Source of the DNA: an uncultured Clostridia bacterium
GTDB lineage: Bacteria > Bacillota > Clostridia > Oscillospirales > Acutalibacteraceae
Assembly (NCBI GenBank): GCA_927362715.1
Contig: CAKMIX010000017.1
Location: 1-57,700, forward strand
Reading direction: 5' to 3'
Length of the DNA stretch: 57,700 nt
In this document: positions 15,237-19,649 of the stretch, in pieces
How positions within the stretch are numbered: position 1 is the first letter of the stretch
Layout of the letters: each line of letters starts with the position of its first letter
The notes under the pieces: model-generated
What the model was told of the DNA's origin: nothing
The model's database searches: none
The model's input: only the letters and a program-made list of their open reading frames with translations
Made by a program: the position numbers and the translations under genes

Positions 15237-17177
15237 TCAATTTGTATGAATTTGTTTGTGCAGGGTAACGGGTGTAAAAGGTTTGCCGTCGCCCTCGTAA
15301 AAACGGCTGAACATTTCGTAATATTCAAGACGCAGCACCTGGATGCCCGTCAAAAGCCCTTCAAGCACGATCACCAGCGCGTTGCCGAGGATGATGACAA
15401 ACAGGTTTTCGCTCTCGCCCGCAAGCGAGAACACAACCATCATCATGCCTGCATGCACCAGCACATACGCGCCGACGCGCAGGAAAGACAGGGTATTGGA
15501 AAGGTAAGAAAGGACGTATTCGATGAGTTCAAAGAAATTCTGCAGCAGAAAATCCGGTACGCTCTCGGGCTTCCAATCGGGGTGCTTATCGACGATGCCG
15601 ATGGGGATCTCCTTGATATACAAGAGCACCGCCGAAATGCCCAGCAGCACGCCGCAGACATTCGTGGGGATCGGCGCCGGGCCGCCCATAAAGCCGGAGG
15701 CAAGGTTGACGCCCATGAGATACAGCACAATGCCTGCAAGCCCATTTTGGCTGAAAAGCGCTTCGCCGAACTGCCGGCGCTTCAGGCTTGCATATATGTG
15801 GATGAGCATTGCGCAGACCATGAGGAACACGCCGATGCCGATGGCAATGAGCAGCACGGTATTGATGCTGTCCATAACGGAAAACGGCTTGCCGCTCCAT
15901 CCGAGGGCGTGGTACACCGGGTCGAGCATTTCCTCAAACCCGAACACGCTGCCGAACAAAAATCCGAACACCGCAGACGAAAGCCCGCAGGGGATCAAGA
16001 TCTTGCCGAGCTCCATTTTTTTGAGCTTCCACATAAGGAAGCCCGCAAGGCTCACCACAAGCCCCTGCCCCAAGTCGCCGAACATGATGCCGAACAATAT
16101 GGTATACGTCACCGCGACAAACGGCGTCACATCCACGTCGCTGCGGCCGGGCGAGCCGTACATTTCAATATAATACCGGTATGGGGAAACAAGCGCTCTG
16201 TACAGCGGCCCGCGCTGTTTATATTGAACGGGGACCGAAACTTTCTCGCTCTTCGGCGGTTCCTCTACCTCCGCAGAGACATCCTTGATCGTATCGATGC
16301 GTTCGGAAAGCCCGCGCACACGGCTTTCGGGCACAAAGCCCACAAGCATAAAATTCTTTTCATTGTGCAGAGCATAGCTGCGCAGCGAAAACACCGCGTT
16401 TTGCCGAAGAAGCTTCGTATACAGCAGGTTGCAGTGCGCTTCTTCCTCTTTCCAGAACGCACGCAGATGGTCTTCGTTCTCGGAAATCTGCCCGTCGAGG
16501 ATCGCGATGCTTTTGCGGATTTCGGCGAGCACCTCATCCACCGTGCCGGCTGCGCCGGGAACGGAAAACGGTTCAAACAGCAGAAAGGCAAAAATACCGT
16601 CCACTTCATCAAGCTTATCGACCGGGGCAAAGTACACACCCCAATAATCGGTCTTGTCCTCCGAACACGGGCAGAACAGCAAATAGGGGTAATCGCGGAA
16701 CACTGTATTCAGCCGTGCGAGGCTCTCTTTCGGCATATGCCCGAAGCGCACCTTGATGAACTCACATGCGGAAATGCTGTCCAAATCGAGATCCAGCCCC
16801 GCGAAATGCGAATACTTGCGGATGCCGTCCTCACAAACCTCTTTCTGCTCGGTCAAAATACGGCGCGTTTCCAAAAGCTGGGAAGCGCGTTTTTCCACCG
16901 TGCGGATATAGTCGTCATCCGCGTCATCGGACACCGTTTCGGATGCAGTCTGCTCTTCCAGCGGAAACCCGAGCGAGGCCGCAAAATCCGTGAGCGCCGT
17001 GATTTTTTGCGTGTAGGGGTTCTCCTCCGAAAACGGAAGAAAGCCCATGGAGGAGGAAATATAATTCGATGCGGCATCCGGCTGGAAGCTCTCGCTTTCG
17101 CACAGCACCTCGCTGACTGCGGCAAGCTGACCGAGCGTGCCGCTGATCTTCATCAGCTTCATTCTTTCAATCGCCAT
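15237..17177 (-). CDS. atpI: V/A-type ATP synthase subunit I (a-subunit homologue)
   Basis: A 646-residue subunit that holds the ion half-channels. Residues 1-320 are the soluble arm, with ISACEFIKVRFGHMPKES and a coiled-coil segment. Residues ~355-646 hold about seven membrane helices, including the SNTLSFLRVGAYVLVHAG helix with the essential arginine R567. The end LRLEYYEMFSRFYEGDGKPF is typical. AAGGAG precedes the ATG at 17177. The upstream gene codes for a homologue of its soluble half only. Confidence 0.94.
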   Translation of the reverse strand: MAIERMKLMKISGTLGQLAAVSEVLCESESFQPDAASNYISSSMGFLPFSEENPYTQKITALTDFAASLGFPLEEQTASETVSDDADDDYIRTVEKRASQLLETRRILTEQKEVCEDGIRKYSHFAGLDLDLDSISACEFIKVRFGHMPKESLARLNTVFRDYPYLLFCPCSEDKTDYWGVYFAPVDKLDEVDGIFAFLLFEPFSVPGAAGTVDEVLAEIRKSIAILDGQISENEDHLRAFWKEEEAHCNLLYTKLLRQNAVFSLRSYALHNEKNFMLVGFVPESRVRGLSERIDTIKDVSAEVEEPPKSEKVSVPVQYKQRGPLYRALVSPYRYYIEMYGSPGRSDVDVTPFVAVTYTILFGIMFGDLGQGLVVSLAGFLMWKLKKMELGKILIPCGLSSAVFGFLFGSVFGFEEMLDPVYHALGWSGKPFSVMDSINTVLLIAIGIGVFLMVCAMLIHIYASLKRRQFGEALFSQNGLAGIVLYLMGVNLASGFMGGPAPIPTNVCGVLLGISAVLLYIKEIPIGIVDKHPDWKPESVPDFLLQNFFELIEYVLSYLSNTLSFLRVGAYVLVHAGMMMVVFSLAGESENLFVIILGNALVIVLEGLLTGIQVLRLEYYEMFSRFYEGDGKPFTPVTLHKQIHTN

Positions 17178-17218: not shown

Positions 17219-18166
17219 TCAGGCCGTCGCAAAACGCTGCTTGACGCAGCCCTTTCGGATCACATAGACTTGTTTGCTGTTTTCCAGAACAGCGTACAGC
17301 TCCCGCAGCCGTTCTTCGGGCAGCAGCCCGGTCAGGATGTAGGAGCCCTTGCAGCACGTCGCATAGGCTTTCAGCGCAAACAGCGACTCTGCCCCGGCAA
17401 GCGCGGCATACAGCGCACGGACGGTCTCCTCTTCTTTTGCAAAGAACCGTTCCAGGCGCTGCTCGACGTCGGAAAGCTCCGTCTCTAAGATGTGCAGGCT
17501 TCGTTCAAATTCCGTGCCGATCTCGGCGGTATTGCCTGATAACGAAGGTATGGCAAGCGACTCAAACAAAAGAGAGGCAAAGATCGCATCGATCCGCTGC
17601 GCCATATCGCGCGGCGCAAAATACATTCCGAAGATCTCGCCGCCGTCCGAAAAAGATGGGAAAAACTCTACATACGGATTGTCCGCATACAGCGCACGCA
17701 TACGCTCGTAGCTTTCCGCGGGCATATGCCCGAATCGAACGCGGATGAACGTGCATTCCGCAATATCCTGCATGTCTACAGTCAAATCGCCGAACAGCTC
17801 CAGCTTTTTTTGCCCCTGTCGGCAGGCGTCCTCCTGCTCTTGCAGCTGTGTTTTCTCTTTTTGAAGCGTTCGGCAGGTTTTATAAAGCGCCTCGGCTTTT
17901 TCGTGCCAGTCTTCCGGCAGAGCCGCATGGATGTCGGCTTCGGGAAGCGGTTTCCCGGCGACATCCAGCACAAAGCGCAGATGCGAGAGCGTATGCGTAT
18001 ACGGGCTGTCGCCGCCGCTCTTTTTCTCCATGCCGTGATATGCCGATGTCGGCGTTTCGGTATCAAACTGCGGCCGGAAGCCGTATTGCTTCAAAGCTCT
18101 GCAAACCGCATCCATTTCTTCCGAAGCGATCAGGAGCCTGAGGACCGCAAATTTTCGTTTTCTCAT
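17219..18166 (-). CDS. Free-standing paralogue of the subunit I soluble domain
   Basis: A 315-residue protein homologous along its whole length to the cytoplasmic half of subunit I, with no membrane domain. The clearest shared block is FIRVRFGHMPAESYERM here against FIKVRFGHMPKESLARL in subunit I, followed in both by a conserved MYFAP/VYFAP strand, an IDAIFASLLFE-like helix, a coiled-coil segment and a closing GLLPEERL/GFVPESRV strand. There is no frameshift or leftover membrane segment, and a normal AAGGAAGG site precedes the ATG at 18166. It lies between subunits C and I. It looks like a maintained gene, perhaps a stalk or assembly subunit. Confidence 0.85.
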   Translation of the reverse strand: MRKRKFAVLRLLIASEEMDAVCRALKQYGFRPQFDTETPTSAYHGMEKKSGGDSPYTHTLSHLRFVLDVAGKPLPEADIHAALPEDWHEKAEALYKTCRTLQKEKTQLQEQEDACRQGQKKLELFGDLTVDMQDIAECTFIRVRFGHMPAESYERMRALYADNPYVEFFPSFSDGGEIFGMYFAPRDMAQRIDAIFASLLFESLAIPSLSGNTAEIGTEFERSLHILETELSDVEQRLERFFAKEEETVRALYAALAGAESLFALKAYATCCKGSYILTGLLPEERLRELYAVLENSKQVYVIRKGCVKQRFATA

Positions 18167-18193
18167 GGAAAGCCTTCCTTTCACACAGGCCCG

Positions 18194-19298: not shown

Positions 19299-19613
19299 TT
19301 ATTCGCCTTTGATCACCGCAGAGAACAGTGCGTCCTCCCACGCGGCATGTCCGGCGTTATACCGTTCTTCCAAACGCGCGGCAAGGTTTTTTTCTCTTTC
19401 CGAGATGGCGCGGCTTTGCACCTCGAGCTTTTGCTGCTTGGTCTTGCGTGCACGGTCGATCTCTTCGTGCGCACGCGCGGTATTTTCAGCGTCGATCGCC
19501 TGCTTTTGCGAAGCAAGCGTTTGTGTCAGCGCCTCGCGCCGCTGCCGTGCCTGCTCCACGCGCTCACGCGCGGCACGGTCTGCTTCGACGATCATGTTCA
19601 GCGCGTTTTCCAT
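19299..19613 (-). CDS. V/A-type ATP synthase subunit G/H (peripheral stalk)
   Basis: A 104-residue, almost continuous charged helix (VEADRAARERVEQARQRREAL and so on), the form of V/A-type stalk subunit G/H that pairs with subunit E. The ATG at 19613 has GGAGGG upstream; an in-frame start 18 bases earlier is less likely. It is the first gene of the ATPase operon, right after its promoter. Sequence is low in family-specific marks, so the call leans on length, coiled coil and position. Confidence 0.8.
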   Translation of the reverse strand: MENALNMIVEADRAARERVEQARQRREALTQTLASQKQAIDAENTARAHEEIDRARKTKQQKLEVQSRAISEREKNLAARLEERYNAGHAAWEDALFSAVIKGE

Positions 19614-19649
19614 GAAAAGCCCTCCGATCATCTGTTTTATTAAGAACTG

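Follow-up and report, generated by a model that had tools for sequence, protein, structure and literature searches.

A soluble paralog of the subunit I cytoplasmic arm in the rotary ATPase operon of an uncultured Clostridia bacterium

The ATPase operon and its additional gene

The DNA analyzed here, called the window, is a stretch of 57,700 nucleotides from an uncultured Clostridia bacterium of the family Acutalibacteraceae (GenBank assembly GCA_927362715.1, contig CAKMIX010000017.1, positions 1 to 57,700). Its minus strand carries a rotary ATPase operon that runs from 19631 to about 9971 in the order H-C-X-I-K-F-E-A-B(-D) (Table 1), where X encodes a soluble paralog of the cytoplasmic arm of subunit I and is separated from the C and I genes by 27 nt and 41 nt, respectively. 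An earlier note, made from the sequence alone, had credited X with a good ribosome-binding site and an unbroken frame, and both points hold: AAAGGAAGG lies 6 nt before the ATG, and the 315 codons from the ATG at 18166 to the TGA at 17219 contain no internal stop. The G+C fractions at the three codon positions of X (0.61, 0.41, and 0.65) resemble those of the neighboring genes. Elsewhere in the operon, the single ATP-synt_C domain of subunit K (residues 94 to 153) is preceded by a long extension at the N terminus, which starts hydrophobic and includes a Thr/Ala/acidic stretch.

The source genome (G000; 2.17 Mb, 99% complete) yielded two matches to X at an E value of 0.001, namely, X itself and the neighboring subunit I, and one E gene and one H gene were found in it. 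Searching the whole genome with the nucleotide-binding family PF00006 recovered two genes, the A and B genes of the X operon, and no alpha or beta gene of an F-type ATP synthase. Since these are the only PF00006 matches, the V-type enzyme is apparently the sole rotary ATPase of this organism. A phage origin was rejected, with no PHROGs match found for X, and a contig artifact is ruled out by the recurrence of the gene in separate assemblies.

Table 1. Coordinates of the operon genes, the parts of X, and the variant subunit I genes of related genomes (the first 16 entries refer to the window; L numbers precede coordinates on other contigs)
Feature	Location	Strand	Basis or remarks
X, soluble paralog of subunit I cytoplasmic arm, 315 aa	17219..18166	-	ATG 18166, TGA 17219
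Ribosome-binding site of X, AAAGGAAGG	18173..18181	-	from sequence; 6 nt before ATG
X residues 1-56, proximal lobe, first half, rebuilt relative to I (~20% identity)	17999..18166	-	model and alignments
X residues 57-137, coiled-coil helices, outgoing half	17756..17998	-	model
X residues 138-212, distal lobe (VRFGHMP, YFAP), best kept, 47% identity to own I	17531..17755	-	model and alignments
X residues 213-266, coiled-coil helix, return half	17369..17530	-	model
X residues 267-311, proximal lobe, second half, last strand X specific	17234..17368	-	model, alignment
Subunit I, 646 aa, arm intact plus membrane half	15237..17177	-	family profile matches, hydropathy
Subunit C (homolog of eukaryotic d), 355 aa	18194..19261	-	PF01992
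H/G-type small coiled-coil subunit, 110 aa, first gene of operon	19299..19631	-	weak V-type subunit H match (E 0.003)
Subunit K, membrane rotor ring, 157 aa	14745..15218	-	family profile matches
Subunit F, 101 aa	14426..14731	-	family profile matches
Subunit E, 202 aa	13790..14398	-	family profile match; TTG start as listed
Subunit A, 584 aa	12039..13793	-	PF00006 match
Subunit B, 458 aa	10648..12024	-	PF00006 match; TTG start as listed
Putative subunit D, 213 aa	9971..10612	-	position and sequence character
Tandem-arm subunit I	L087 3911-6748	-	one genus of the family
Tandem-arm subunit I	L088 3207-6059	-	one genus of the family
Tandem-arm subunit I	L089 3774-6617	-	one genus of the family
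Subunit I with extra distal lobe in arm	L090 3572-5893	-	
Subunit I with extra distal lobe in arm	L096 5083-7275	+	
Subunit I with extra distal lobe in arm	L114 4744-7119	+	
Subunit I with extra distal lobe in arm	L059 6171-8435	+	
Subunit I with extra lobe in membrane half	L091 5102-7411	+	
Subunit I with extra lobe in membrane half	L092 4738-7050	-	
Subunit I with extra lobe in membrane half	L093 4041-6353	-	
Subunit I with extra lobe in membrane half	L094 3836-6172	-	
Subunit I with extra lobe in membrane half	L095 5113-7449	+	
Subunit I with extra lobe in membrane half	L124 2670-5021	+	

BLASTP aligned residues 53 to 300 of X with the neighboring subunit I at 33% identity (E = 3e-46) and confirmed the VRFGHMP, YFAP, and G-x-x-PE motifs that the note had described as common to both proteins; the similarity is far beyond chance. 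The note had extended the match over the full length of X. This stands for the fold, with the whole chain being modeled as an arm, but not for the sequence, as residues 1 to 56 are only about 20% identical to subunit I, which has nothing corresponding to the final residues of X, GCVKQRFATA. The C-terminal tail is kept as G(C/S)V(K/R)QRxATA in all five close orthologs of X. A simple hydropathy scan found no hydrophobic window in the 315 residues of X and nine (some overlapping) in subunit I, in agreement with the proposed lack of membrane helices.

Pfam V_ATPase_I (PF01496) had no match to X up to an E value of 1, so that X falls below the gathering cutoff; the NCBIfam subunit I models matched with a best E value of 1.1e-10 but with scores far below their cutoffs; and the eukaryotic subunit C family was absent among the five Pfam matches of X up to an E value of 1. 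With respect to the features of the PF01496 family, X has the two-lobed coiled-coil arm and lacks the multihelix membrane half that contacts the rotor ring. A PDB sequence search with the X alignment returned nothing useful, and one with A2 returned only weak matches to Thermus subunit I and 3rrk, among chance matches.

An AlphaFold2 model of X based on an alignment of 38 arms (pLDDT 85.4, pTM 0.67) predicts the arm fold over the whole chain, with a proximal lobe built from residues 3 to 33 and 275 to 311, coils at residues 87 to 125 and 213 to 266, and a distal lobe at residues 141 to 198. In a Foldseek search of the PDB, this model matched Thermus subunit I best (6r0z_N, E = 3.6e-14). The next matches were eukaryotic subunit a and 3rrk (E = 5.1e-11), and eukaryotic subunit C (1u7l) matched at an E value of 2.7e-6 with a TM-score (query) of only 0.28. 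The arm of the neighboring subunit I, modeled likewise from 31 sequences as a control, matched 6r0z_N at 3.3e-15 and 1u7l at 2.0e-7. Because the subunit I arm matches 1u7l slightly better than X does, the likeness to subunit C is a property of the arm fold, and a likeness specific to X is not supported. Like Thermus subunit I (6r0z chain N, 3rrk), X combines a long coiled coil with two alpha/beta lobes, the distal one carrying VRFGHMP and YFAP, but it differs from subunit I in the missing membrane half, in the first proximal half (~20% identical to its own subunit I), and in a C-terminal strand of its own. Eukaryotic subunit C (Vma5) is likewise soluble, with two globular ends on a coiled coil, but X has no sequence match to it, and the collar position that subunit C occupies is only proposed for X.

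Soluble arms and extra distal lobes in related genomes

Among the 36 genomes of the genus (source included), 27 had an arm match, and a separate soluble arm gene lies between C and I in seven of these 27 (G000, G019, G012, G025, G006, G003, and G024). Identity to the source X is 95% in G019, 77% in G012, 71% in G025, and about 30% in G006. The copies in G003 and G024, referred to here as type 2, are 30% and 26% identical to X and 46 to 48% identical to subunit I; type 1 comprises six genes, including that of G006. In the other 20 arm-bearing genomes C adjoins I with gaps of -10 to 60 nt, and in G005 and G023 the contig end cuts either C or I. Since these 20 do without it, X is dispensable.

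The named relatives of the source genus are Candidatus Fimenecus, placed by NCBI in Clostridia incertae sedis. A scan of named genomes gave 17 loci, 7 with X and 10 with subunit I only. Six of the seven match genus genomes already counted, and the additional one (L102) is Candidatus Fimenecus excrementigallinarum, whose X is 69% identical. A genome of another genus, G167, also has a free-standing arm between C and I. The conservation of position that the earlier note had proposed to check was thus seen in all nine carriers (the seven genus genomes, L102, and G167), and the full-length second subunit I by which it would have recognized a truncated remnant was present at none of these loci, the gene being arm-only in every carrier.

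In a wider draw from the family, 211 of 398 genomes had a match at an E value of 1e-10, seven of them with more than one; among the matches listed, these seven comprise G000 and G167 with their free-standing arms, four genomes in which a single frame holds long or repeated arms, and G638. The order draw gave matches in 93 of 295 genomes, with free-standing arms only in G000 and G167, and the class draw gave matches in 112 of 291, with a free-standing arm only in G000. Short frames in G209, G245, G284, G423, G443, G454, G512, G700, G779, G885, G928, and G970 were rejected as free arms because contig ends cut them. In G638, arm pieces at two contig ends (L119 1-372 and L132 3744-4115) overlap with 91% DNA identity, reflecting either a strain mixture or two arm copies. 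In G811 (L138 1528-3831, minus strand), a subunit I-like gene occupies two adjacent open reading frames 12 nt apart, for the arm and membrane parts (290 and 472 aa), which may be a split gene or a frameshift.

Additional arms are also found within subunit I itself. In three genomes of one further genus (G397, G565, and G622), a tandem-arm subunit I of 945 to 950 aa lies between C and K, with arm 1 at about residues 1 to 324, a second arm at about 390 to 600, and hydrophobic segments beginning at about 646. As with X, there is a second arm besides the usual one, upstream of the membrane half, but here it is covalent, and its first proximal half was not detected. Within the arm, an additional distal lobe was observed in L114 (791 aa), where it is nested in the first distal lobe, in G335 (773 aa), in G299 (730 aa), and, more weakly, in G049 (754 aa). 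In six other genomes (G143, G194, G254, G313, G171, and G102; 769 to 783 aa), the extra distal lobe is part of the membrane half, covering about residues 551 to 661, and falls in a loop between hydrophobic segments in the three that were scanned for hydropathy. All of these forms are open frames. The piece common to X and all extra-lobe forms is the distal lobe (profile positions of about 140 to 191), which is also the most easily detected part of the arm; the inserts add 84 to about 145 aa to the usual 646 aa of subunit I, however, so the extra lobes are not merely a detection effect. Extra copies of the arm or its distal lobe therefore recur in related bacteria, both as separate genes, as in some gut bacteria, and inside subunit I.

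Selection, origin, and divergence of the two lobes

The frame is open in all nine soluble arm genes. Pairwise dN/dS for X was 0.15 to 0.26 in 10 pairs among five type 1 genes and 0.19 in the type 2 pair, compared with 0.05 to 0.24 for C (11 pairs), 0.07 to 0.22 for E (7 pairs), and 0.05 to 0.13 for I (11 pairs), in sets from which G006 (too distant) and G167 were left out, as was L102 for E, and with synonymous sites near saturation in several pairs. X is under ordinary purifying selection, weaker than that on subunit I and like that on C and E. The earlier view that the gene is selected rather than decayed is borne out by this coding, purifying pattern and the open frames, and the view that it is no standard subunit gains support from the same pattern together with the arm-only state of the locus in all carriers.

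In a tree of 43 rows, the six type 1 genes grouped together (100/100), the X of G167 stood beside the subunit I of the same genome (100/100), and the X of G003 and G024 fell within a group of subunit I sequences of the genus (99/99), nearest, though weakly (83/39), to subunit I of the same two species. A single clade of all nine X genes was rejected (AU P value = 4e-62), although X-I gene conversion in G167 could give the same picture. With both Fimenecus types held as one clade, the AU P value was 0.024 with 43 rows and 0.247 with 33 rows, and the branches concerned are long. These trees are most simply read as two or more gains of an arm-only tandem duplicate; for G167, gene conversion between X and I may be the alternative.

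The two lobes of X have diverged from subunit I to different degrees. In the type 1 genes the distal lobe stays close to that of subunit I and retains the constraint on sequence found there. The six type 1 genes are 44 to 48% identical to their own subunit I in the distal lobe, 20 to 30% in the first proximal half, and 19 to 35% elsewhere. The ratio of proximal to distal identity to the own subunit I was 0.67 in G006 and 0.44 to 0.50 in the five other type 1 genes, versus 0.72 to 1.12 in nine comparisons between subunits I. In a second alignment, the X-I ratio had a median of 0.36 (range 0.15 to 0.65; 162 pairs, 27 genus subunits I), and the I-I ratio was 0.86 at 15 to 30% arm identity (298 pairs, 5 to 95% range of 0.59 to 1.25) and 0.70 at 30 to 40% (210 pairs, 0.53 to 0.93); these pairs are not independent, the figures shift with the alignment, and the X-I values extend into the lower part of the I-I range. 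Between the X proteins themselves the ratio was 0.82 (10 pairs, five type 1 X), indicating that the type 1 proximal lobe has been rebuilt and constrained anew, that is, respecialized rather than relaxed. The shift is weak in G006 and absent in the type 2 copies (0.69) and the X of G167 (0.77), which may be younger or may work somewhat differently.

Possible roles of the soluble arm

As described in the available portions of the cited papers, the Thermus arm has two globular subdomains that bind the proximal and distal EG stalks (PMC7367684), of which the enzyme has two (PMC5758568), and in isolated Thermus Vo the arm swings onto subunit d, contacts it via both lobes, and blocks the rotor (PMC7367684). 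The two ends of the eukaryotic arm are likewise described as contacting one stalk each (PMC10313074). According to the available text of a review, the A-type collar consists of subunit a alone, eukaryotes have three stalks and build the collar from C, H, and subunit a, and subunit C is without homologs in A- and F-type enzymes (PMC6131620). In a partial search of the literature, neither a soluble, truncated, or duplicated subunit I, nor extra distal lobes, nor a third bacterial stalk was found to be described, and the available text of a rotary ATPase database paper mentions neither a soluble subunit I paralog nor extra distal lobes (PMC11738941). The soluble arm paralog is likely to be novel.

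We see about an even chance that X is an accessory stator or collar subunit that arose by arm-only duplication of subunit I and adds a distal-lobe dock. X would be seated in the collar of the same ATPase, its distal lobe holding an EG peripheral stalk by the N-terminal tip, as the distal lobe of subunit I does in Thermus, and its rebuilt proximal lobe binding a new partner, which may be subunit I, C, or a neighboring stalk. X would thereby anchor one more stalk, possibly a third EG stalk along the side of A3B3 that is otherwise unused, as the soluble subunit C does in eukaryotic enzymes. A distal lobe that is retained together with a proximal lobe that is respecialized fits an added stalk dock held by a new contact, and such a dock is favored over replacement of subunit I because the latter is intact and constrained in X-bearing genomes.

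It is possible, though we hold this only tentatively, that X is an independently evolved bacterial counterpart of eukaryotic subunit C, anchoring a third EG stalk in an enzyme with three stators; with one E gene and one H gene in the genome, this stalk would reuse the same EG proteins. On that three-stator reading, related Clostridia might, equally tentatively, reach the same end by tandem arms in subunit I or by distal lobes inserted in its arm or in a membrane-half loop. The recurring soluble arm paralog would offer a living example of a collar subunit arising from subunit a/I, and subunits I with no extra lobe, with a lobe inside, and with a separate arm would form a natural series for relating stalk number to torque and coupling.

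The main rival of the added dock, given that the same lobe binds d, is a rotor brake or coupling regulator, in which X would bind subunit C (eukaryotic d) or V1 and hold the rotor or silence free Vo or V1. The conservation of the distal lobe would agree just as well with a brake, because this lobe also contacts d in the isolated Vo of Thermus. The subunit I arm has such a role in Vo isolated from Thermus and from yeast. The Thermus arm touches d through both lobes (PMC7367684, in the part available), and in Enterococcus hirae d and the arm are reported to interfere with each other (PMC10382590, likewise); moreover, X adjoins the C gene, and a separately made soluble protein suits regulated binding. 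We nevertheless consider a brake rather unlikely, as the same lobes are already available in subunit I and a reversible inhibitor in soluble form is harder to see as the common theme when fused tandem-arm forms also occur.

X might also be an assembly factor or placeholder that would bind EG or A3B3 before subunit I joins and then leave. Its soluble arm with an intact distal lobe and its place ahead of I in the operon would suit this role, but the covalent arm-arm-I proteins of another genus cannot leave, and the fact that such arms are kept repeatedly in this cluster points to a permanent component; we regard an assembly role as improbable. A mixed stalk, with X replacing the subunit I arm in part of the enzyme population or competing with it, seems more improbable again: the fold is the same and the distal lobe is shared, but X lacks the membrane half and so cannot replace subunit I, which is itself intact and constrained (dN/dS of 0.05 to 0.13) in X-bearing genomes, and the first proximal half is among the most altered parts of X genes of the window type. 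Finally, that X is a truncated, decaying second copy of subunit I is scarcely credible despite its arm-only form and patchy occurrence (7 of 27 arm-bearing genus genomes), given the dN/dS values above, the mere 41 nt between X and I in the window, and the C-terminal tail of its own kept in all five close orthologs, and a remnant of a second full subunit I is excluded for the type 1 and type 2 genes by their purifying coding pattern, arm-only loci, and open frames.
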